DNA of 43,837 nt from Candidatus Poseidoniaceae archaeon (GTDB lineage: Archaea > Thermoplasmatota > Poseidoniia > Poseidoniales > Poseidoniaceae), in contig JAPKCS010000016.1 of the NCBI GenBank assembly GCA_028822845.1, positions 1 to 43,837 of the forward strand, given 5' to 3'. Below are positions 2,666 through 32,944 of the stretch, one piece after another. Each line of letters opens with the position of its first letter. Positions within the stretch are counted from its first letter, which is position 1. The notes below the pieces were generated by a model. The model was not told the origin of the DNA, did not search any database, and worked only from the letters and a program-made list of their open reading frames with translations. The position numbers and the translations under genes were made by a program.

Positions 2666-3628
2666 TCAGTCGTCAATAGCGTCTCTTAGTTCGGCTAACA
2701 GTGTTGCATGTTGTGCATCGGTCACGTTGAGGGAAAGGCGTAATGTTTCTAACATGGCATCCTCATCACCAGTGATGACACCATCGAGCATGGCAGTTTC
2801 CAACGACTTGCTGTATGTGTTGACATTTTCTGCACGCATTGGCGTAGTTTTCGCTTCAGCCAGTAACTTGTCATGCATGAGCCGATCAAAGCCGAAGGCG
2901 GTTCTGACTGTTTCCAACAAAGCGATTTCGTCGTCAACCAGTTCCCCATCGATGAGGGCTTGGCGAAGCATATCGAGGTAGATTTCTTCAGGCGGCGGGG
3001 CTTTTTGTTCACGCCTTGCTTCATCAGAAAGCCTACGAACACGTTCTGGATGCATACCCAGAAAGTCAACCACTTCCTGGAGCAGGTATTGTTCATCTCG
3101 GGTGATTTTCCCATCCTCCCAGGCTCTGGCAAACAATCGACGAACAAGGTGTTCGCCGGCTTGTGCATCAAGGGAGGCCACACCTTCAGGATTGGAGACT
3201 GGTGACACGATGGGGTTTGGATGATAGGTCATGCCTTCATCAACGTGCGAGAGGAGTTCTAATGTTGCTTGGCCACCCTTCCTCATATCGAGTAAGACAA
3301 TGCTTTCCCCATCGATTCGAACGGTTTGACTTAGGATTTTAGTTCGCAGAGTTTCAGCCGTGGTTCGCCCGGTGATCGACAACCCATACACTTGACGACG
3401 TTGCTTTCCGCCTGGTACGTGCCGTTTGGATACCACAAGATCCCCTCGGGCTTCCAACCGCTTCAAGGTCCGTGGAACGTGCTTGCGTTGGACGTGAACA
3501 GCAGCGGATATACCTGCTTGTGTGACCGCTGCTGGGGCCTCCCACTCACCCTCGGGCAAACGGTGGTCCAGCAGATGGAGAAGGGTCCGCTCTTCAGTTG
3601 TGAGGGAACCAAGATATCCGTCGACCAA
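2666..3628 (-). CDS. Winged-helix DNA-binding protein with TerB-like C-terminal region
   Basis: About 320 residues. The N-terminal 85 residues read as a winged helix of the MarR/ArsR kind: two helices, then a recognition segment HVPRTLKRLEARGDLVV and a basic wing KRHVPGGKQRRQVY. After a middle strand region (VRIDGESIVLLDMRKG) come three helical units from about residue 160, each with the pattern DG-x-I-x-x-D-E (WEDGKITRDEQYLL, DGELVDDEIALLE, DGVITGDEDAMLE). These resemble the acidic turns of TerB/tellurite-resistance helical repeats. The role is probably transcriptional regulation with a sensing domain; the ligand is unknown. The start is TTG at 3628 behind GGGGAG; no in-frame ATG or GTG exists although the frame stays open to about 3745, so the N-terminus is uncertain. 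Diverges from endA. Confidence 0.6.
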   Translation of the reverse strand: MVDGYLGSLTTEERTLLHLLDHRLPEGEWEAPAAVTQAGISAAVHVQRKHVPRTLKRLEARGDLVVSKRHVPGGKQRRQVYGLSITGRTTAETLRTKILSQTVRIDGESIVLLDMRKGGQATLELLSHVDEGMTYHPNPIVSPVSNPEGVASLDAQAGEHLVRRLFARAWEDGKITRDEQYLLQEVVDFLGMHPERVRRLSDEARREQKAPPPEEIYLDMLRQALIDGELVDDEIALLETVRTAFGFDRLMHDKLLAEAKTTPMRAENVNTYSKSLETAMLDGVITGDEDAMLETLRLSLNVTDAQHATLLAELRDAIDD

Positions 3629-3693
3629 AGTTCTCCCCGTTTCCTTGTCAGCACCGGTAGCACATAGGGCAATCGGTTGACCAACGAACTCAA

Positions 3694-4827
3694 ATGAAGC
3701 GGTCTCGACGCCACAGCATGGGGCGACAAAAGCGAACCTTCACCCCTCGCGCTCGAACAACGCGGCCTCTTGGGACCTCACTTTCACCAAATCAAGCACC
3801 AAGCATACCTTTGGCACCACCTGTCAAAAAAGGAGATGGATGGTACATTGAACCTCCATTAGCATCACGTTTGCATCAGAAAAGCGCCCTGGGACGAACC
3901 GATTCCGATGGCGGCATTTTTCTGACCCATGAAGAAATTTTATTCTGTCATTGGCACCGACACCTCCCACTCCCTGATGACGATTGGTTTTCCTCAACAG
4001 TGCGCCAAGATCCAGAGCTGGTTGCGCGCTCTGTTGCTTTTGATGTTGCCCGGAGCGGTGGGGAACTCGTTGTACCTGTCAGCAACATTGCCAAAAAGCG
4101 GGACTTAACCACATCCGAAACCACTTGGGCACTGCGTTGGAACAGAGAACAAAATTTCACCAAAGAACCACCTGTTGCTCATGTTCGATGGGCTTGGACC
4201 ACCGATGATGTGGATTGGGTCGAAATGGAACAATGGACCAGGGATGTGACAAAAAATGGTCTCTTAGCAGAACTGTTTGTGGTCGATGAAGAACTCGATG
4301 TCACCATGTACCGGCTGAGCTTTTCCACAATTGAAGGCGATCAAAAGACCTGGAATCAATTGAATGAAGCCGATGTTGATGTTCTTGCCTCCTATTGGGA
4401 AACCCGTATTGAACGAGGCGACGGATGGTACATTCCCCTCAATGCTCCTTGGCCTTGGCCCTCCCTTGGTGTGGAGCACATTTCAGGCCGACATTTGCGT
4501 TCTGAAGAAGGCCGATGGCTTGCTCAAATGTTGAAGAATGAATCAATAAGTGATGATCTTCGTCTGTATGATGATCTCATTAACCGAGGTGTCGTCCTAC
4601 GTCCAGGTTTCAAATATGGCAGTCAATGGAGGATTTACGATGCTGCAGTCGGCGATGCTCATGCTCCTTGGTTGCTGTTGCCTGTGGAACGAGCACCGAT
4701 GACTTGGAACGCTGCTTGCCTTTCTGTTCGTCTCGCTGAGGGCGTCAACAAAATTTGGGTCTGTGCATTCGCAATGGATCAATCCTGGTCTTACCTTCAG
4801 GTGCAACGCTGGTTACCTGGGCGTTGA
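3694..4827 (+). CDS. endA: tRNA-splicing endonuclease EndA, tandem-domain type
   Basis: 377 residues, the size of the double-unit (alpha-prime-2) archaeal enzyme that cuts the bulge-helix-bulge at tRNA intron borders. The C-terminal catalytic unit has GFKYGSQWRIY (Tyr315), DAHAPWLL (His323) and ACLSVRLAEGVNKIW (Lys353), the Tyr-His-Lys triad with normal spacing. The protein repeats itself: GDGWYI occurs at 47-52 and again at 242-247, each followed by a helical N-terminal unit, so residues 45-235 are a catalytically dead copy. The N-terminal 45 residues are basic and look disordered. ATG at 3718 is an alternative start. The gene diverges from the winged-helix gene and its stop abuts the stop of the convergent protease with no gap. 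Confidence 0.85.
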   Translation: MKRSRRHSMGRQKRTFTPRARTTRPLGTSLSPNQAPSIPLAPPVKKGDGWYIEPPLASRLHQKSALGRTDSDGGIFLTHEEILFCHWHRHLPLPDDDWFSSTVRQDPELVARSVAFDVARSGGELVVPVSNIAKKRDLTTSETTWALRWNREQNFTKEPPVAHVRWAWTTDDVDWVEMEQWTRDVTKNGLLAELFVVDEELDVTMYRLSFSTIEGDQKTWNQLNEADVDVLASYWETRIERGDGWYIPLNAPWPWPSLGVEHISGRHLRSEEGRWLAQMLKNESISDDLRLYDDLINRGVVLRPGFKYGSQWRIYDAAVGDAHAPWLLLPVERAPMTWNAACLSVRLAEGVNKIWVCAFAMDQSWSYLQVQRWLPGR

Positions 4828-21060: not shown

Positions 21061-24000
21061 TCATGGTTGTCCTTCATTTTGGTCGAGGTATTGTTGGCCG
21101 TAATGGGTCCATTGCTCCATGGACCAACCTACTGGAAGACCTGTTGGAGGCAGTGGTGGTTCAATTGATACCATGTTTTCTGAATGGGGTTCCTGAACGT
21201 GATGTGTGTTCTGTCCTGCGGACACAGGTGGCCCCGTGCTCACGGGTGGACCAGCCGAGGCAAGCAGCAAAGGGAATTCCTTTTCCATCGCTGTTTCCAT
21301 TTCCTCTTCTGGTGAACGGTTCCGCAGCATCAACACCATGAGCAGGAGGAAACCGAGGAAGGCCGCCAAGCCACCCGCCATCGTTTCCACACTCAACGAT
21401 GCTGAATCTTGTGGTCGTTCAGAGAATCCAATCACCTGACTGTCTTGCCATGTGATGGTACCATCCGTTGTTGCAATCAGGAATGATATCCGCCCCTCGA
21501 GCGGGCCTCCAAGTCGATGGAGGGTGCAAGGGACATCGGTGAGTTGGGGCGTGAGGTGACCCGGTGAAAACGACAAGTTCTGACCATCGCCCTCAATCAA
21601 AACACCATTGCATACCATTTGCCAATCTTCGGGTGTTGTTGCATACAACAGAACATCCTCGTGTTGGCTTGACAGGCTTGTGATGTTGACAAAGAATGGG
21701 ACTCCGACCCCTGTTGTTTGAGTTTGGTTTGTTGACGCACTTAGGACCGCGCCTACCGACCGTTGTTGGTCCACGATGATCAGAGATTCGTATTGGAGTT
21801 CATAGGGGTTCATTTCGGAATCAAAGCCAGCTATGACTTCAAATGTAACCACGATACGCGTGTTGATGATCAATGTCTCTGGAAGGATCAGGTCGACGTT
21901 CAACGTTGTCGATTGATTGGGCCCTAGCATCAAACTTAGATGTTCATCGAGGGATTTCGCCCCCCCACCCATCCCAGTTGTGAAGAAAGCCAGAATCCCT
22001 GAGTTCGGTGGGGATGCGGAATATGAAACACGGACAAGGATCGAATCATCGATGGCGTTTCCGATGTTTGTCAGTGTCGCATTGACGTTGACCGTGCCCC
22101 CAACCATGGCTGATTTCGAACCGAGGGAGCCCGAAAGGGAGGGGATTCGTACGGATGCAGTGATGGTATCAATGATCACAATGTTGTCTTCAGAATTGGC
22201 GTCTTCGTGTCCATCCGCATTGGTGACTGACATTGTAATGCTGTGAATTTCACCTGCTGCCTCTTTGCTTGGGACATGAATGTAAATGGCGATTGTAGCG
22301 TTATTCTGTAGGTCATATGGGGCACTTAACTCAACTGGATTGGTCGCATTGTCCCCATTGACCTTCATCCAAGAACTCCAGCCACTTGGCAAGTTCAACG
22401 GCACGACATCAGCCTCGACTGGCCCATTTCCATTGTTGACAATTTCCAGGAGAATCATTGTTGCCGTCCCAGGACGTAATTTTGTTGGTGCGTCCACGAT
22501 TGTGATGGATAAATCACTGATTGTTCTCACCTCAATGCCTGAAAAGGAATCACCAGTGATGGTCATACCGCTTCTCTTTGAAGTGATGCTTGGTGTGACT
22601 TCGGGAGCCTTGTCGCCTGCTTGTCCTGTGGTTGGAGCCGTGATTTTCACGCTAAAGGTGGTGCTTGCACCCGGATTGATGACTGCATCTGGTCGCGTTG
22701 GTTGTTCAACGGTCCACATTCCTAAAGATCCATGAGCCACTTCCATGGTGAAGATATCTTGTCGAGTCGCATTGTTCCAGATGGTGAAGTCGACAATGAT
22801 GGTCTCCCCTGCGTTGACCAACCACTCTTGGTTTGCTTGCATGATGGTCATTCCAACATAGGCTTCACTGATCATCGAAGCCGATACACTGATTGGCAGG
22901 TGGTGGCTTTTTGCTGAATTATTTTGAGATTGAGCGTGGAGTGTAAAACTCCCGATTGTATCGGGGATTGCAGAGGGTGCGACGCTCATCGTAATGGCGA
23001 CCATCACTGGTGCATCGGGGCGTACCAAAATTGAAGACGACTGTGTCCAAGCCAATTGAACATTCCAACCCGTGGGGAGGCCCGATTCATCGATGGTTAA
23101 ATCAAACACATCGGTGGCATCACCTATGTTTTGCACTTCGACGTCGAACGAACAGGTGTAGCCCGGTGGGCATGTCGGACGGTTGTCCGGTTGGATGATC
23201 AGCGGTTCTCGATCGGGGAGAACCTGGTATTGGACAGCGAGTGTCGTGTTCACGGTTGCGTGCTGGCTGGATGTGCCGAGGAATGTCATTTGTTCGAAAC
23301 CCGTTGATGCGTTGGCGTCCGGTTTTATTTTGACCTGAATGTTCTTTGATTCACCAGGGGCCAGCAAAATCCCTGTTTGGTCGTTGATCGACACCCCTGA
23401 TGGGTGTGAAAAGTACACATCCCAATCCGTCGGTAATCCAATCAAAGATGGCAATACATAATCTGAAATGTTGCCAGAATTCGTCAGGCTAACACTCACA
23501 GCACCCCATTCATCTGGGAGGGAACCCGTTGTGGATACACCGGTCGATGTGAAGGCATATTCTGTTGCTTTTACCTTTTGGTCATACATGATTACGATGT
23601 CATCCAACCAGAACCCGATGTCATTTCCTACCGCATCGGTGGACATGACAAATCGAAACTTTGTCGAGGGGGAAAGTCCTGATTGTGGTGTCGGAATCAA
23701 TGGAGAAGTTGCCCCTTGGTGGTTGACAGAAAAAGTTTGCCAGTTTGCACCATCAATGAACGCTTGGTCGACCGTCCCCGAAAGGGTTGCCATTTCCGTG
23801 TTGGCGCCCGCTGCATTCTGAACATACACCTTGAGTGAGTCCCCCGCAGGTGTACTCCCTGTGTACCAGAAACTCATTCCATTGGTTCTCAAAGGATTCT
23901 GTACAGCATCCGACATATCGAAGGCCGGTGTTTCTAAAACACTCGTGGTCGAGGCTGAATAGGTCGAGGTCTCCCCATTACCAACGTGGCATGCACTCCC

Positions 24001-24624
24001 TTGTGAGAGGTATGTGTCGGTGTTTGTACCCCATTCATTTGTTGTCGTCCATTGTGATAGATCATCACAATTGAAGTAGTGCGATGCCACTGTGAAATGT
24101 CGGTTCTTTTGGTCATTGTTCGGATTGTCATCGATGATTGAAGAGGTCCCGATGACCTCAAGGGTATGGTTTCCTGAATACATCGGGGTAAATGTAAACC
24201 CAATGGTGTTTGAATTCCCGCCACCCAACGATGTCATTTGCTGTGTGATGTTGATCATCTCGAATTGTTGGTATTCATTATGCAACACCTTCAATGTGAC
24301 ATCGATGGTACCCGAAGCGGCCGTACCCCCGTTGCTCAAGGTGACCTCGGCATAGATGGGCACTTCGACGACGGCATCGATGACGTAGAGGTTGGCTGGA
24401 CGATTAAAACCCGGAATTGGGTGGTTGGATGAGAACATTCGGTAGCGACCCTCGTCAACCCCAGTTGTGTAGGAAAAAGAAACATTGGTCACCGATATGT
24501 CCACGCCTGTCGCTCTGGCTCCTGCATGGTGGACCGAGGGGGCATCATCTGCGGCTGGGATCATTGGTGTGACCGAACCCAAAAGAAAGAGGACGACCAA
24601 AACAATTGCCGGGCTACGAAACAT
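21061..24624 (-). CDS. Giant cell-surface protein with NEW3/CARDB-like repeats and SHOCT-like tail
   Basis: 1187 residues from ATG 24624, which opens a signal peptide (MFRSPAIVLVVLFLLGSV). ATG 24672, seven bases after the upstream stop, is the alternative. A CARDB-like sandwich (about 40-180) is followed by a jelly-roll/MAM-like segment (about 185-355, with CDDLSQWTTTNEWG and GFWLDDIVIMYD). At least five repeats of the NEW3 type follow (VQNIGDATDVFDLTIDESGL, EIVNNGNGPVEADVVPLNLP, NIGNAIDDSILVRV). A membrane span (about 1080-1100, GGLAAFLGFLLLMVLMLRN) leads to a cytoplasmic tail ending GWSMEQWTHYGQQYLDQ, a SHOCT-like short helix motif. It is probably an adhesin or stalk. It occupies the same strand as the smaller membrane protein upstream. 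Confidence 0.75.
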   Translation of the reverse strand: MFRSPAIVLVVLFLLGSVTPMIPAADDAPSVHHAGARATGVDISVTNVSFSYTTGVDEGRYRMFSSNHPIPGFNRPANLYVIDAVVEVPIYAEVTLSNGGTAASGTIDVTLKVLHNEYQQFEMINITQQMTSLGGGNSNTIGFTFTPMYSGNHTLEVIGTSSIIDDNPNNDQKNRHFTVASHYFNCDDLSQWTTTNEWGTNTDTYLSQGSACHVGNGETSTYSASTTSVLETPAFDMSDAVQNPLRTNGMSFWYTGSTPAGDSLKVYVQNAAGANTEMATLSGTVDQAFIDGANWQTFSVNHQGATSPLIPTPQSGLSPSTKFRFVMSTDAVGNDIGFWLDDIVIMYDQKVKATEYAFTSTGVSTTGSLPDEWGAVSVSLTNSGNISDYVLPSLIGLPTDWDVYFSHPSGVSINDQTGILLAPGESKNIQVKIKPDANASTGFEQMTFLGTSSQHATVNTTLAVQYQVLPDREPLIIQPDNRPTCPPGYTCSFDVEVQNIGDATDVFDLTIDESGLPTGWNVQLAWTQSSSILVRPDAPVMVAITMSVAPSAIPDTIGSFTLHAQSQNNSAKSHHLPISVSASMISEAYVGMTIMQANQEWLVNAGETIIVDFTIWNNATRQDIFTMEVAHGSLGMWTVEQPTRPDAVINPGASTTFSVKITAPTTGQAGDKAPEVTPSITSKRSGMTITGDSFSGIEVRTISDLSITIVDAPTKLRPGTATMILLEIVNNGNGPVEADVVPLNLPSGWSSWMKVNGDNATNPVELSAPYDLQNNATIAIYIHVPSKEAAGEIHSITMSVTNADGHEDANSEDNIVIIDTITASVRIPSLSGSLGSKSAMVGGTVNVNATLTNIGNAIDDSILVRVSYSASPPNSGILAFFTTGMGGGAKSLDEHLSLMLGPNQSTTLNVDLILPETLIINTRIVVTFEVIAGFDSEMNPYELQYESLIIVDQQRSVGAVLSASTNQTQTTGVGVPFFVNITSLSSQHEDVLLYATTPEDWQMVCNGVLIEGDGQNLSFSPGHLTPQLTDVPCTLHRLGGPLEGRISFLIATTDGTITWQDSQVIGFSERPQDSASLSVETMAGGLAAFLGFLLLMVLMLRNRSPEEEMETAMEKEFPLLLASAGPPVSTGPPVSAGQNTHHVQEPHSENMVSIEPPLPPTGLPVGWSMEQWTHYGQQYLDQNEGQP

Positions 24625-24679
24625 GGGGCTCGTGTTCGTACACCGCTTCAAGGTATATGAGGAAACTGGCATTTCAGAT

Positions 24680-25534
24680 TTATGAAGTCTTTTCGCCATC
24701 GATGGCTTCGTTGACTTCTCGTTCTGCATCAGCAATTTTGATCGCATCTCGCTTTTCTTTTGCGTTCGCAGCGAAGTACACCGTGAACGATGGGACAAGC
24801 ACCATGGAAAAGCAACCAACGACAGCAGCGAGGGCCCAGAGGAATTCAGTAGCCGCATCAATTGTAAACGGCTTAATGGAATCAAACGCCTCGTTAACGG
24901 TGGTGATCGTCATTGCAGGGGCGGTCGATCTGTTGCCATTTTCGACGATTTCGATTCGGATGAGGGAAGGTGAGTGTTCATACTCGATCGCGTCTTGAGC
25001 TTTGTCAAGCGCAGCACCAGGGTTTTTCGCGTAGACTGTGCCGTTTGATCTTCGTGCTGGGTCGGTGCTGGTCAATGCGAGGACACTGATTTCGCCACCG
25101 TCTTCAGCCAACACCGCGTGCGTGGTGTTTTTCTGACACGACTCTCGGCAACTGAACCCGTCGGCACCTACGACGCCAAGGGAACGGTGACTGTACAAAC
25201 CCGCTCCGTTTGATAATTTTACTTCGGCGCCGTTGGACAACTCCGTGGCGGTGAGGTTGACCCAGGTGAGGTTGGTTCCATCCGCTGGTATTGACCATGT
25301 CCAAGTCGTTTGATTAAGTTCCTCTTGATAGATCCGCACAGGTTCATCTTGAGCATGCACGGTCGTTGTTGCGTCGGTCTCATAGAGGTAATAAGACGGG
25401 GATACTGTTGCACCGTAAACGGCGTACGAGAGCATGAAAATCAACGTAAAGGAAAGCCCCAACAAGGTCCGCAACAAGTTGGGATTTTGAGCCAATGCCT
25501 TTCTCATCACTTTGTCGAGGGCAGTGCCCTTCAT
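24680..25534 (-). CDS. Membrane protein with one extracellular domain and two spans
   Basis: 284 residues from ATG 25534; a longer frame starts at 25603 but reads into the divergent promoter. The N-terminal span LLGLSFTLIFMLSYAVYGA is followed by an outside domain (about 45-215) rich in Thr/Asn with a CRESC pair and the strands RIYQEELNQTTWTWSIPADG and LTWVNLTATEL. A second span, FLWALAAVVGCFSMVLVPSF, leads to a basic and then acidic cytoplasmic tail (AKEKRDAIKIADAEREV). Family not recognised. It lies upstream of the giant surface gene and diverges from the ribosomal operon, so a role in the envelope is likely. Confidence 0.65.
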   Translation of the reverse strand: MKGTALDKVMRKALAQNPNLLRTLLGLSFTLIFMLSYAVYGATVSPSYYLYETDATTTVHAQDEPVRIYQEELNQTTWTWSIPADGTNLTWVNLTATELSNGAEVKLSNGAGLYSHRSLGVVGADGFSCRESCQKNTTHAVLAEDGGEISVLALTSTDPARRSNGTVYAKNPGAALDKAQDAIEYEHSPSLIRIEIVENGNRSTAPAMTITTVNEAFDSIKPFTIDAATEFLWALAAVVGCFSMVLVPSFTVYFAANAKEKRDAIKIADAEREVNEAIDGEKTS

Positions 25535-28281: not shown

Positions 28282-28731
28282 TCAGGCATGCCATGAAGCA
28301 ACGCTCTTGGGTGTTTCGCGTACGTGCATGGCCACCAACTTCAGTTTATTTCCGTACGCCGACACGATGTGAGGCTCGACTTGGTCAAACGCCCACTTCG
28401 CTAAATTCTCAGCAGTCGGGATGAACGGAACCACAACGGTACGATGGCCCTCCGGCATGCATTCTAAAGCACGCAATGCCTCAGTGTCGCCTTCGTAAAC
28501 CACGAATGCATGGTCGACAATATCGTGTATGTGGACGGTGAGAATGTGACTGACATCTGAAAAATCCATCAACATTCCTTCTTCAGACACACCGCTTTCT
28601 TCAACTACATCGCCTTCGATCTCGGCTTCGAACCTATATCGATGACCGTGCATATGACGGCATTTGCTTTTGTGATTAGGGACCCTGTGCCCGGTATCGG
28701 TTTCTACATAGCGCTTTATTTTGGTTGTCAT
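28282..28731 (-). CDS. queD: 6-carboxytetrahydropterin synthase-like QueD
   Basis: 149 residues. The zinc and catalytic motif SKCRHMHGHRYRFE (Cys24, His28, His30) with GHRVPNH (His15) matches QueD/PTPS. MDFSDVSHIL and PTAENLAKWAFDQV follow the family pattern, and the terminal HVRETPKSVASW holds the conserved Glu. It converts dihydroneopterin triphosphate to 6-carboxytetrahydropterin, the second step to preQ0. It is the last gene of the minus-strand operon and overlaps the queC-msrB stop by four bases (ATGA). Confidence 0.93.
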   Translation of the reverse strand: MTTKIKRYVETDTGHRVPNHKSKCRHMHGHRYRFEAEIEGDVVEESGVSEEGMLMDFSDVSHILTVHIHDIVDHAFVVYEGDTEALRALECMPEGHRTVVVPFIPTAENLAKWAFDQVEPHIVSAYGNKLKLVAMHVRETPKSVASWHA

Positions 28732-29882
28732 TCTTCCATCTCCTCAAAGTTGATCGATGCTGAATTGATGCAATACCGTTGACCGCCGTGTTCCCTCGGG
28801 CCATCTTCGAAAACATGGCCAAGGTGAGCGTCACATTTGGAACATCTGACTTCGGTTCGAACCATGCCATATGTACGGTCTTCAATGTGGTCAATCGCAG
28901 CCCTCCGATCTTCAGAATGGAACGAAGGCCAGCCGCAACCGGAATCAAACTTCATTTTTGAACTAAAGAGAAGATGATCACAGCAAACACAGGTGTAGCG
29001 ACCCTTTCGCTTCTCATCCCAATACATGCCGGTAAAGGCCTGTTCTGTACCGCTTAAGCGACTGACTTGGTATTGCAGTTCGGAGAGCTTCTCTTTGTAA
29101 TACGCGTCCTTGTGAGCACGCTCTGTCGCCAATGCTGCTTCAAGCACAACCGTCCATGGTTCGACATACTCGATTGGATCAACCAAATCAAGGGCATGGA
29201 AGGCGAGAATGCGTTCGACATCTGAACCACTTCGTCCAGAACTCCGGCCGTCGCTGTCTGGATTGTATGAGGTGATCGTGTTTTCAAAAATCCGATCAAA
29301 ATTGAGTCCTAAAGAATCGGCTGCATTCAAAGCATCTTTCAAAATTGAGGTTTTGTCGCCATCGAGGTACGGCAGCGTGAACCCAACCTTGTCGCTGTCC
29401 CAGTTTCCAATCATGAATGCGTGTTCAAGTGCGGTGTAGAATTCTGGTCGGCAATCTGGATAAATCTCATGGTCGCCTGAATGGACGCCAAGTGCGATAG
29501 AGACCTTTGTTCCCTCTCTGATCGATACAGACAACGCATATCCATAGAGAATGGATGCAAATATAGCGTTTCGATTCGGAACCACTGTGGCTTTCATTTG
29601 TTCTTCCTCATAGTGCCCTTCCGGTACTTCTGAACCGCCCTCTAACAATGCCGATTCAAAGAGGTTCATGGCACTCGAAAGATCCACAATTTCATGGTCG
29701 ACATCGTGCCCTTTTGATTGGAGATAAGCAATGTTTTTTGTTGCTCTGTCAAGTTCTATGCTGTGCTTTTGACCATAGAGGTATGAGACGCAACTGACCT
29801 TGCAACCATCAGCTAAGAGTCGGAGCAACACCGATGTTGAGTCCATACCACCCGAGAGAGCCATAACGGCACGTTTGGACAT
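28728..29882 (-). CDS. queC: QueC-MsrB fusion: 7-cyano-7-deazaguanine synthase joined to methionine-R-sulfoxide reductase
   Basis: 384 residues from ATG 29882, which shares a base with the queE stop. Residues 1-255 are QueC: the PP-loop ALSGGMDSTSVLLRLLADG (8-26), VVPNRNAIFASILYGYAL and GVHSGDHEIYPDCRPEF. QueC normally has four zinc cysteines near its end (TCY then CGxCxxC); here these read TSY and SGRSGSD (positions 205 and 214-220), so none remains. Residues about 264-384 are MsrB: QVSRLSGTEQAFTGMYWDEK, zinc pairs Cys298/301 and Cys347/350, KFDSGCGWPSF, and catalytic Cys371 in RYCINSASI. The MsrB half looks complete. The N-half should make preQ0 from 7-carboxy-7-deazaguanine and ammonia with ATP, if the zinc loss is tolerated. 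A longer frame to 29981 overlaps queE and is not used. Confidence 0.9.
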   Translation of the reverse strand: MSKRAVMALSGGMDSTSVLLRLLADGCKVSCVSYLYGQKHSIELDRATKNIAYLQSKGHDVDHEIVDLSSAMNLFESALLEGGSEVPEGHYEEEQMKATVVPNRNAIFASILYGYALSVSIREGTKVSIALGVHSGDHEIYPDCRPEFYTALEHAFMIGNWDSDKVGFTLPYLDGDKTSILKDALNAADSLGLNFDRIFENTITSYNPDSDGRSSGRSGSDVERILAFHALDLVDPIEYVEPWTVVLEAALATERAHKDAYYKEKLSELQYQVSRLSGTEQAFTGMYWDEKRKGRYTCVCCDHLLFSSKMKFDSGCGWPSFHSEDRRAAIDHIEDRTYGMVRTEVRCSKCDAHLGHVFEDGPREHGGQRYCINSASINFEEMEE

Positions 29883-30544
29883 CAGTCCACACCCATCCAC
29901 TTGTGAGTCTGAAGGCTGAGTCGCCACGGGGGAGACATCTTGACGACCGTTTCGGTGTGTGAAAAATTTCTTCCGTTCCATTCAACAGATTCTTGGTCCA
30001 TGTAACATGGTTGAAGGAAGAGGTGTTTGAAGCCTTGTTGCAATTCGTTGTACATTGCTAAGTCTTGACCAAGATAAACGCACTTTAGTTCATCCCCGGT
30101 CCGCTGTCGAATCACAGCGTTTGGGTAGATTTGGTCTTTCGGTGAAACACAGATCCAATCCAACATTCCTTCCGGCACCTCGATGGTGCCGTTGGTCTCG
30201 ATGGACAGCGAATACCCTCTCGCTTTGAGCAATCGGTGCAAGGGCCACAAATCATTGAGCATTGGTTCGCCCCCGGTAAAAATAATTCTCTTGCACGGAA
30301 AGGCCATAACATCACCAAGGATATCCAAAGCAGTCTTTGTTTCATGGGTCAAGAAGTCAGTATCGCACCACTCGCACCGGAGGTTGCATTTTCCGAAGCG
30401 GATGAACACATGCGGGACACCGGCATGCATACCTTCGCCCTGAACAGAATGGAAGATTTCTACAATTTCATACTCTGTTGCCAGATCTGTAGGGTTGTCA
30501 ACCGGTAGGTCACCGGACAATGAACACGGCTCTATTGCTTGCAT
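29882..30544 (-). CDS. queE: 7-carboxy-7-deazaguanine synthase, radical SAM
   Basis: 220 residues. HSVQGEGMHAGVPHVFIRFG precedes the cluster motif CNLRCEWCDTDF (Cys53, Cys57, Cys60, spacing CX3CX2C), the QueE-type cluster-binding loop. IIFTGGEPMLN and LSIETNGT bind S-adenosylmethionine and substrate, and VSPKDQ follows. It converts 6-carboxytetrahydropterin to 7-carboxy-7-deazaguanine. The start is set by TGAGGTGATGCAATG, where TGA ends folE. Together with folE, queC and queD it provides preQ0 for archaeosine in tRNA. Confidence 0.94.
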   Translation of the reverse strand: MQAIEPCSLSGDLPVDNPTDLATEYEIVEIFHSVQGEGMHAGVPHVFIRFGKCNLRCEWCDTDFLTHETKTALDILGDVMAFPCKRIIFTGGEPMLNDLWPLHRLLKARGYSLSIETNGTIEVPEGMLDWICVSPKDQIYPNAVIRQRTGDELKCVYLGQDLAMYNELQQGFKHLFLQPCYMDQESVEWNGRNFSHTETVVKMSPPWRLSLQTHKWMGVD

Positions 30545-30553
30545 TGCATCACC

Positions 30554-31123
30554 TCAGAGGGGGCGTGCTTGAATCAACTGCATCAATTCTTGCCGTGCTT
30601 CTGGACGTTCAAAGAACACCCCGCGCATTGCCGAGGTGGTCATGATTGAATTTTGTTTCTTGACACCACGGCATCGCATGCATCCATGGGATGCTTCAAT
30701 GATAACTGCTGCACCAAGAGGCGATAAGTGCTTTTCCAGATCGTCTGCAATCCCTTTCGTGATCCGTTCTTGGTTTTGTAAACGGCGTGCATGGAGATCG
30801 ACAATTCGAGCTAATTTACTGATGCCAACAATGCGCTCAACCGGAATGTACCCGATGTGGGCGCGACCAGTGAAAGGTTGCAGATGATGTTCGCAGGTCG
30901 AATGAAATTCAATGTCCCTAAGCAAAACGATACCATCGTACCCTTCACCGTTAAATGTTGAATCTAGCAATTCACCTGCATCCATGTCATACCCTCCAAA
31001 AATCTCAGACCAGGAATCGATAACACGTTTTGGTGTGTTCAAAAGCCCTTCCCGTTTCGGATCGTTTTCAAGGTACCCAAGGAGGGTTGAGACTGCTTCT
31101 TCCGCTTCTGTTCGTGTGACCAT
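30554..31123 (-). CDS. folE: GTP cyclohydrolase I
   Basis: 189 residues, family-typical. FHSTCEHHLQPFTGRAHIGY (zinc ligands Cys77, His80), RIVDLHARRLQNQERIT, and HGCMRCRGV (third ligand Cys148) are canonical for bacterial-type FolE (GCYH-IA). It makes dihydroneopterin triphosphate from GTP, the entry step to preQ0. Many archaea instead use the MptA type, so this is a bacterial-type enzyme in an archaeal context. It follows the RHH gene by three bases. Confidence 0.95.
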   Translation of the reverse strand: MVTRTEAEEAVSTLLGYLENDPKREGLLNTPKRVIDSWSEIFGGYDMDAGELLDSTFNGEGYDGIVLLRDIEFHSTCEHHLQPFTGRAHIGYIPVERIVGISKLARIVDLHARRLQNQERITKGIADDLEKHLSPLGAAVIIEASHGCMRCRGVKKQNSIMTTSAMRGVFFERPEARQELMQLIQARPL

Positions 31124-31126
31124 TGT

Positions 31127-31294
31127 TTACACCTGCCTTCCATGCCGAGCATCGATTTCATCGAGCTGGTCTAATAATTTCCGACATGCAGTCCGTACAG
31201 CATCTGCCAAACTGACAAATTTATGATCATCTCCGACATGCTTGCGCAGGTCTTCGACCAATTCTGCCGGCATATCAAGAGAAATTTTGGGCAT
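31127..31294 (-). CDS. Ribbon-helix-helix (CopG-like) protein heading the preQ0 operon
   Basis: 55 residues from ATG 31294. MPKISLDMPAELVEDLRKHV is the N-terminal ribbon and first helix; FVSLADAVRTACRKLLDQLDE is the second helix of an RHH DNA-binding fold. A TATA element 26 bases upstream puts transcription start at the ATG itself, so the mRNA is probably leaderless and the upstream ATG at 31312 is not used. As first gene before folE it is the obvious candidate autoregulator of the preQ0 pathway. Confidence 0.8.
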   Translation of the reverse strand: MPKISLDMPAELVEDLRKHVGDDHKFVSLADAVRTACRKLLDQLDEIDARHGRQV

Positions 31295-31317
31295 GATTCC
31301 GGCTCTAACCACTCACC

Positions 31318-31323
31318 TATAAG
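31318..31323 (-). promoter_or_regulatory. TATA element of the RHH-folE-queE-queC-queD operon
   Basis: On the minus strand CTTATA is centred about 26 bases upstream of the RHH start codon, the normal archaeal TATA to start distance, implying a leaderless transcript. The plus strand carries TATTATTT at 31346-31353, probably the box of the divergent aminotransferase. Confidence 0.6.
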
Positions 31324-31441
31324 TATTCGCCCAGTCATACCAGAGTATTATTTTTGGATTGAGGCGAAAGACTCGGAAGTGCATCCAATCCATACGAATC
31401 TAAGCGAATGTTCAAGGCATTCCGGATGGGACGCAAAATTG

Positions 31442-32944
31442 ATGACAGCGATGATGCAACCGCATGAGGCCCTCGAGCACCTGCACACTCTCCGTTCCCA
31501 CACGGGGGCAATGGACACCGTCGGCCTCCCCGATGATGTCATTCTCCAATTCTGTGCCCATGATTCGAAACTCTCACAAGCCATTTCTGAAGCAACCGTT
31601 CGGTTCACAGAAGTCACCAATGAGTTTGGCGCCGACATGCTCCTCCACGATGAGGCACACCTCATCAAAGTCTTGCAGGCTGATTTCGTAAATTTCTATG
31701 CCCCTGCTACGGTCAACCCTTACATCGCGCTGTCCGGACGCGGACCTTGGATCGTCACCGCATACGGTGCAGTTCTCCACGATAACGGGGGCTACGGGAT
31801 GCTCGGTGCAGGTCACGGTCCACAAGGTGTCATTGACGCTATGTCCGGCAATTGGGTTATGGCGAACGTCATGACGCCTTCGTTCAGCCACAAGCGCCTT
31901 GCTGAGCGACTGGAAAAGGAACTCGGCCACACGAGGGGTTCCTGTCCATTCACCAAATTCATCTGCATGAACAGTGGCTCGGAATCTGTAACCGTCAGTC
32001 TACGAATCGCAGACGTCAACGCTCGAACGCACACAGGACCTGGTGGGAAGCATGAAGGCAAGGAAATCAAGCTCCTGGCCATTGAGAAGGCATTCCATGG
32101 ACGAACAGATCGTCCTGCTCAAATTTCACATTCATGCAAATCTTCCTATGACAAAAACCTCGCAACCTTCCGGGACCGCGACAACCTCTTGCTCGTGCCT
32201 GCAAATGACATCGCATCCCTCGAAGCAATGTTCCAGCGTGCTGAAGATGAAAACTGGTTCATTGAACTGATGGCCATTGAACCCGTACAAGGTGAAGGAA
32301 ACCCTGGTGCATGTGTGGAGCGTGACTTTTACGATGCTGCACGCAGGTTAACACTTGAACACGGTGCCATGCTCCTCGTCGACTCGATCCAAGCAGGAAT
32401 TCGCGGTCAAGGCTGCCTCTCCATCATCGACTATGAGGGCTTCCAAGACGCTGAAGTTCCCGACCTCGAAACCTGGTCAAAAGCCCTCAATGCTGGCCAA
32501 TACCCACTCTCCGTGCTGGGAATGAATAAAAGAGCAGCTGATAATTACGTTGTGGGCATTTATGGCAACACCATGACCACCAACCCTCGTGCCCTTGAAA
32601 CAGCATGTGCTGTGTTGGACACAATGACACCCGAACTGCGTGCAAACATCAAGCACCGTGGTGAAGAATTTGTTGAGAAATTGATTCTCCTCGGAGAAGA
32701 GATGCCAGGAATCATTACCAAAGTCCAAGGGACTGGGCTCCTATTGAGCGCGGAATTAGATCCGACTCGATACCAAGTCGTTGGCTTTGATGCTGTGGAA
32801 CCATGGTGCCGACGTCACGGCCTCGGTGTGATTCACGGTGGCGAGAATGCCCTCAGGTTCACCCCACATTTCGGGATCACTTCGGAAGAGATCGACCTCA
32901 TCATCGATGTTGTCCGAGAAGCCTTCGTCGTCTTCTCCGCTTGA
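31442..32944 (+). CDS. Class III PLP-dependent aminotransferase
   Basis: 500 residues from ATG 31442. The PLP fold is shown by YGMLGAGHGPQGVIDAM, FICMNSGSESVTVSLRIAD (pyridoxal phosphate loop), IEKAFHGRT, IEPVQGEGNPGACV, LLVDSIQAGIRGQG and TWSKALNAGQYPLSVL with the Schiff-base Lys. At the usual DEVQ motif the Glu is Ser (DSIQ). The family includes ornithine, lysine and 4-aminobutyrate aminotransferases; the substrate cannot be told from sequence. TATTATTT at 31346-31353 sits about 29 bases before an in-frame GTG at 31379, so a leaderless GTG start is an alternative. It ends directly against the convergent ABC permease stop. Confidence 0.83.
   Translation: MTAMMQPHEALEHLHTLRSHTGAMDTVGLPDDVILQFCAHDSKLSQAISEATVRFTEVTNEFGADMLLHDEAHLIKVLQADFVNFYAPATVNPYIALSGRGPWIVTAYGAVLHDNGGYGMLGAGHGPQGVIDAMSGNWVMANVMTPSFSHKRLAERLEKELGHTRGSCPFTKFICMNSGSESVTVSLRIADVNARTHTGPGGKHEGKEIKLLAIEKAFHGRTDRPAQISHSCKSSYDKNLATFRDRDNLLLVPANDIASLEAMFQRAEDENWFIELMAIEPVQGEGNPGACVERDFYDAARRLTLEHGAMLLVDSIQAGIRGQGCLSIIDYEGFQDAEVPDLETWSKALNAGQYPLSVLGMNKRAADNYVVGIYGNTMTTNPRALETACAVLDTMTPELRANIKHRGEEFVEKLILLGEEMPGIITKVQGTGLLLSAELDPTRYQVVGFDAVEPWCRRHGLGVIHGGENALRFTPHFGITSEEIDLIIDVVREAFVVFSA

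Follow-up and report, generated by a model that had tools for sequence, protein, structure and literature searches.

A probable preQ0 synthase lacking the QueC zinc cysteines is joined to methionine sulfoxide reductase B in a Poseidoniaceae archaeon

Can a QueC protein that has lost all four of its zinc cysteines still make preQ0, and what does a methionine-R-sulfoxide reductase (MsrB) fused to its C-terminus contribute? These questions are raised by one gene of a Candidatus Poseidoniaceae archaeon (assembly GCA_028822845.1). The window analysed is the whole stretch of 43,837 nucleotides from contig JAPKCS010000016.1. According to PMC9508795 and PMC13329287, QueC needs zinc, and in the latter the zinc motif counts as a hallmark of the canonical enzyme; PMC6884629 was found to discuss neither zinc nor cysteine. 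The initial annotation knew of no described QueC-MsrB protein, and we likewise found none in the literature searched (supplements and most subscription papers lie outside it). A proteomics study was the one paper that combined QueC, MsrB and fusion, and a single paper brought Marine Group II together with archaeosine. The main text of PMC13329287 mentions neither MsrB nor Poseidon, a literature search on Marine Group II and zinc independence found nothing, and one on QueC lacking zinc-binding cysteines in phages found only PMC13329287.

A queC-msrB fusion gene in a que operon

The single frame of 384 codons that had been annotated at 28728-29882 is present and lies on the minus strand, the plus strand containing stops. 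Pfam matches to QueC and SelR/MsrB agree with the annotation that a QueC domain and a complete MsrB are joined in this frame. The gene is part of a tight operon with the order folE, queE, queC-msrB, queD:

30554..31123, minus strand: folE, GTP cyclohydrolase I
29882..30544, minus strand: queE, radical SAM, with a stop codon overlapping the start of queC in TGATG
28728..29882, minus strand: queC-msrB fusion gene, 384 codons plus stop
29196..29873, minus strand: QueC domain, residues 4-229, Pfam QueC (PF06508), 136 bits
29220..29270, minus strand: former zinc-site stretch, S205 to D221, with S, S, S and D replacing four Cys and Tyr206 retained
29088..29195, minus strand: linker, modelled with one long helix (residues 243-265)
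28743..29087, minus strand: MsrB (SelR) domain, residues 266-380, Pfam, 164 bits
28282..28731, minus strand: queD; its start overlaps the queC-msrB stop (ATGA)

The Pfam score of the QueC domain is above the cut-off of 22 bits, whereas its score with the QueC equivalog model TIGR00364 (130.6) is below the cut-off of 150.3. The MsrB domain scores 169.7 with TIGR00357 (cut-off 113.05) and, as had been annotated, contains its own zinc pairs (both CxxC) and the catalytic Cys (RYCIN), together with the Cys of GCGWPSF. It shares the catalytic Cys, the Cys before GWP, the zinc pairs and the fold with known MsrB proteins (SelR, TIGR00357; 3cez, 52% identical), from which it differs in being the C-terminal half of a QueC fusion. 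The structure prediction that the initial annotation had proposed was made with AlphaFold2 from an alignment of 70 rows (mean pLDDT 91.7, pTM 0.81) and placed the long helix between the QueC and MsrB domains. Foldseek matches of the model included MsrB 3cez (TM(target) 0.93), QueC 3bl5 (0.75) and 2pg3 (0.69) and the Cap9 complex 9nto (0.75).

Two other genes of the window were recorded: a class III aminotransferase at 31223-32944 (plus strand) whose N-terminus is extended by about 150 residues that match nothing in Pfam, and a 1274-residue protein at 21061-24885 (minus strand) with CARDB-like matches, which is perhaps secreted.

The zinc cysteines are replaced and the catalytic residues are retained

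The former zinc stretch of the source QueC reads TSYNPDSDGRSSGRSGSDVERILAF. The canonical site C(x)8CxxCxxC is absent, and the four cysteines are replaced by S205, S215, S218 and D221, exactly as had been claimed from the sequence. The PP-loop SGGMDS (residues 10-15) and the catalytic motifs Y36-E43 (YxQxHxxE), V101-N105 (VPxRN), Y141-C144 (YPDC) and Y206 are all found. In a section of PMC13329287, alanine mutants of E. coli QueC at Y35, R99, Y131 and Y189 are reported as inactive; the motif counterparts of these essential residues, Y36, R104, Y141 and Y206, are invariant over the 70 aligned rows. The source QueC thus has in common with canonical QueC (PF06508, TIGR00364; 2pg3, 3bl5) the fold, the PP-loop, YxQxHxxE, VPxRN, YPDC, the essential Tyr and the neighbours queD, queE and folE. 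In contrast to it, the source QueC lacks all four zinc cysteines, is extended both ahead of and inside the former zinc loop, falls in a separate clade and belongs to a group that is often fused to MsrB.

The same picture was obtained across the order, in which SGGMDS is found in 119, YGQxHxxE in 119, VPNRN in 120 and YPDC in all of 121 loci. The zinc loop contains no Cys in any of the 119 QueCs readable by pattern (among the 121 loci, source included), the residues at the four ligand places being SSSD in 89, SSTD in 11 and others in 19. As to the two unreadable loci, L049 has no Cys by eye and L121 ends at the contig end. The loop forms a conserved motif of its own, TSYxPDxxGRSSGxSG(A/S)DVER, and since all 119 readable loops lack Cys and mostly read SSSD, it is conserved rather than decayed. 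Zinc could still be bound by other residues of the QueC domain.

The fusion recurs in the order and MsrB is not always present

A search for the fusion in other Poseidoniales genomes had been suggested by the initial annotation. Among 145 genomes of the order, source included, 122 match the protein, and the QueC locus was taken from 121 of these, one per genome; the matching genome left out, G055, has no QueC match. QueC and MsrB are joined in one frame in 66/121 loci, which rules out a frameshift or sequencing artefact. In 40 loci msrB is a separate neighbouring gene. The other 15 showed no MsrB; they include L121, which ends inside QueC, and L118, which extends only 121 bases beyond it. In L045, counted as split, one in-frame stop separates the domains, possibly through an error in a fused gene. 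Zinc-free QueC is therefore unfused in 54 of the 120 loci where this is visible (L121 is cut off). A single quick tree with 119 labelled rows, which lacks L043 and L117 because their PP-loop is unreadable, gave 11 changes among the fused, split and MsrB-less states, but the well-supported branches force only two changes for the fused state. The operon partners are also widespread (FolE on 118, QueE on 120 and QueD on 105 of the 121 loci), in the order FolE, QueE, QueC, MsrB where present, and QueD.

Of the MsrB sequences on 106 loci, all have the first zinc pair, 105 the second, 104 the catalytic Cys and 105 the Cys before GWP; the MsrB of L075 is cut off. The fused MsrB is the single SelR protein of the source genome. 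A SelR search of 28 genomes gave one match each in 16 and none in 12. Thirteen of these 16 matches belong to the QueC locus, and those of G144, G147 and G209 lie elsewhere. Zinc-free QueC without any SelR match was found in G025, G007, G015, G017, G038 and G092 and in Marine Group III genome G271, all seven of which are incomplete (85-93%). A separate MsrA is encoded in 20 of the 28 genomes, source included.

Zinc-free QueC forms one clade of archaea, viruses and bacteria

The QueCs of 22 other Thermoplasmatota read TWSCYxGGxxACGxCDSC or close to it; they include that of Marine Group III genome G147, and the zinc-free one of Marine Group III genome G271 was kept apart. Eleven of the 22 entered a tree set of 89 rows, in which four Cys are present in 27 of 28 ordinary rows (virus L217 holds three) and none in 60 of 61 zinc-free rows (L254 of Marine Group III holds one). 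All 61 zinc-free rows group in a single clade with a support of 100/99, and SH-aLRT support remained at 100 after removal of the zinc-site columns. The stem of this clade is long (1.68 changes per column); several rows are long-branched as well, and the tree program cautions that joins may be false. Two side observations concern ordinary relatives: the virus QueC of L217 carries CGxCGTD, in which only the last zinc Cys is changed to Asp, perhaps a separate partial loss, and G147 (L174) has an ordinary four-Cys QueC with no TGT or ArcS match.

Virus loci matched by the source QueC were zinc-free in 12 of 15 cases. Among the best 80 virus loci matched by the zinc-free QueC alignment, 77 have no loop Cys and the other three have one Cys in an insert, not at a ligand place; this list is ranked by likeness to a zinc-free query and gives no estimate for viruses at large. 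At least one contig occurs in both virus sets, as L213 and as L301. Eight named phages were examined: immuto is zinc-free, and four Cys are present in each of the remaining seven (L395-L399, L406, L407). The QueC of Flavobacterium phage immuto, annotated only as QueC, belongs to the same clade and shares TSY, SGGMDS and the absence of zinc Cys with the source QueC, to which it is 43% identical; its loop reads SDYKSASSVER rather than RSSGxSGADVER. Among the best 80 genome contigs, 78 have no loop Cys, one has one and one was not read. Their titles are mostly Poseidoniales or Euryarchaeota, Marine Group III, Cysteiniphilum and Facilibium, with MAGs of several bacteria besides, which may include stray contigs of viral origin. 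The archaeal zinc-free group contains two Neomarinimicrobiota MAG contigs, and its sister group consists of virus loci L204-L206 and a Pirellulaceae MAG.

No MsrB was found on the virus or Fastidiosibacteraceae loci examined. Because of these loci, the 54 unfused loci of the order and the MsrB-less genomes, zinc loss is independent of the fusion with MsrB.

Zinc-free QueC is probably a preQ0 synthase

A second, normal QueC was looked for in the source genome (92% complete), and no second full QueC was found. The only other PF06508 match, C56, reaches 18.8 bits (27.7 with its neighbours, cut-off 22) and was rejected as a second QueC, its match spanning only model positions 2-57 in a 316-aa frame. 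The genome encodes ArcTGT (TIGR00432, above cut-off) and ArcS, and a QueF search of it gave no match. ArcS was found in 22 and TGT in 23 of the 24 genomes examined, source included.

In six bacterial genomes (four Cysteiniphilum, one Facilibium and one Thiotrichales bacterium) the zinc-free QueC is the sole full-length QueC-like PF06508 match; the other matches stay below 28 bits and lie in frames 378 to 629 aa long, and three further MAGs gave the same result. QueF, which acts on the nitrile preQ0, is encoded in all six, and TGT in all three that were searched. In Cysteiniphilum the zinc-free queC adjoins queD- and queE-like genes among ordinary genes. In the sister viruses L204 and L206, queF directly precedes the zinc-free queC. 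A PF01702 search for viral DNA modification in 22 virus records, some of them fragments, gave no match above the cut-off and one weak match below it. In L206, a ParB-like + DUF6610 gene (3264-4532) is located beside the queF-queC-queD-queE-folE cluster and is a possible partner in DNA modification.

The co-occurrence with QueF, TGT and ArcS points to preQ0 as the product of zinc-free QueC. The source protein is probably a functional preQ0 synthase of the QueC type that belongs to a zinc-free subfamily and is fused end to end to the only MsrB of the genome. The argument from an only QueC is not absolute, because QueC-less relatives keep ArcTGT and ArcS and might salvage preQ0; G064, G024, G026 and G032 have ArcTGT and ArcS and no QueC match, either by such salvage or by assembly gaps.

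The zinc site of ArcTGT is also lost

A portion of PMC6165067, a paper on the human enzyme, gives three Cys and a His as the zinc ligands of human QTRT1 and calls the zinc cysteines a hallmark of TGTs. Five other TGTs that we inspected, one archaeal-type and four bacterial-type, all keep CCCH. A plasmid search for archaeal TGTs as a wider zinc control gave only bacterial Tgt among the matches listed. ArcTGT positions were aligned to G145 and compared with the archaeal enzyme 1iq8 at what we take to be its zinc-ligand numbers. None of the three Cys of CxCxxC is present in 17 of 18 Poseidoniales/Marine Group III loci, and L200 has one. The zinc-site His is kept in 10 of the 18, and in seven, source genome included, a Cys is located one column off, in PCV. 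An example is

L190:1405-3675, plus strand: ArcTGT locus, zinc Cys absent

The ArcTGT of G025 has no zinc Cys by eye. A TGT match occurs in 21 genomes of the class, of which 19 were readable (G009 and G209 were not), and none of these 19 keeps the complete zinc site. DSGTFQ, presumably the catalytic-loop motif of TGT, is intact in the 18 loci, and the ArcTGT model is confident over the former zinc region (pLDDT >90). The losses in QueC and ArcTGT are not always coupled, because the TGT of Cysteiniphilum-type bacteria with zinc-free QueC keeps its zinc site. Global zinc sparing found no support in the three further proteins compared, FolE (CEHH kept in 118/118), QueD (C...HGH in 103/105) and MsrB (zinc pairs in 106 and 105 of 106), which retain their zinc sites.

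Role of the MsrB half and alternative explanations

The initial annotation had proposed that MsrB supplies zinc or redox chemistry to QueC. Although MsrB retains its own zinc pairs, the proposal found no support: zinc-free QueC also occurs unfused, on virus and bacterial loci without MsrB and in genomes without a detectable MsrB, and it is distributed more widely than the fusion, so that a damaged QueC borrowing zinc or redox power from its partner is hardly credible. The annotation also suggested that the fusion could protect a radical-SAM or thioimide step from oxidation. Alternatively, MsrB might repair oxidised Met of QueC, e.g., that of SGGMDS, or of QueE, as an oxidation hardening in surface water. 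Consistent with such a role, msrB is fused to or adjoins queC in 106/121 loci, SGGMDS occurs in 119/119 readable Poseidoniales loops but in only 1/22 other Thermoplasmatota, and the Met content of the QueC part is 2.2-2.5% compared to 1.36%. However, this content shows no trend with the state of the locus (2.23% in 65 fused rows, 2.52% in 40 split rows and 2.39% in 13 rows without MsrB), which led us to reject methionine content as a sign that MsrB is dedicated to QueC. Moreover, SGGMDS is present in 76 of 79 zinc-free QueCs of viruses, in whose vicinity no MsrB was seen, several genomes with QueC have no MsrB match, and G144 carries its MsrB elsewhere. We therefore regard dedicated repair as unlikely. 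QueC does not seem to need MsrB, and the join looks like a fusion of operon neighbours.

Two further explanations concern QueC itself. Its chemistry might have changed, the zinc-free clade stopping at the amide ADG or coupling CDG to an amine, a reaction suggested for Cap9 and QatC, which have the common QueC fold and have both been proposed to modify proteins. The long stem branch and the Cap9 complex among the Foldseek matches would fit, as would the loss of a site retained even by QatC, a distant relative: according to a section of PMC13279940, QatC has four zinc Cys and is 19% identical to B. subtilis QueC. But every catalytic motif of preQ0-making QueC is retained, zinc-free QueC co-occurs with QueF and TGT or with ArcTGT and ArcS, and the source que operon has, in distinction to QatC and Cap9, no defence partner genes, as judged from its four proteins. 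The PADLOC matches of these four were all weak, one of them to QueC and the rest viperin matches of QueE, and a defence system was discarded on this basis. A changed chemistry is accordingly quite improbable in our estimate. That QueC is decaying while preQ0 is salvaged might be suggested by the relatives that keep ArcTGT without a QueC match; both the QueC domain and its new loop are conserved in the virus clade and in the 121 loci, which come from two families, and this makes decay very improbable.

Discussion

The reading we favour remains a working zinc-free preQ0 synthase fused to MsrB. Such a QueC would convert CDG via ADG to preQ0 in ATP-dependent steps without zinc, and its loop may hold in place, by ordinary contacts, the same segment that zinc would otherwise fix. 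The preQ0 would then be passed to ArcTGT and ArcS to yield archaeosine. MsrB would act as a general methionine-R-sulfoxide reductase, and the join would have arisen by fusion of neighbouring genes, with both activities kept and neither dependent on the other. A more far-reaching scenario, which we consider rather doubtful, is that the class of the Poseidoniales rebuilt the archaeosine pathway without the zinc-thiolate sites of QueC and ArcTGT, left those of FolE, QueD and MsrB in place, and recruited MsrB first to the operon and then to QueC to keep the latter reduced; it includes a zinc-free QueC shared with viruses and possibly exchanged with them.

A naturally zinc-free clade makes it testable whether the zinc of QueC is structural and dispensable. 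It also means that one variant enzyme links marine archaea and viruses, and that zinc-free QueC would escape any annotation that demands the zinc motif or a TIGR00364 score above the cut-off.
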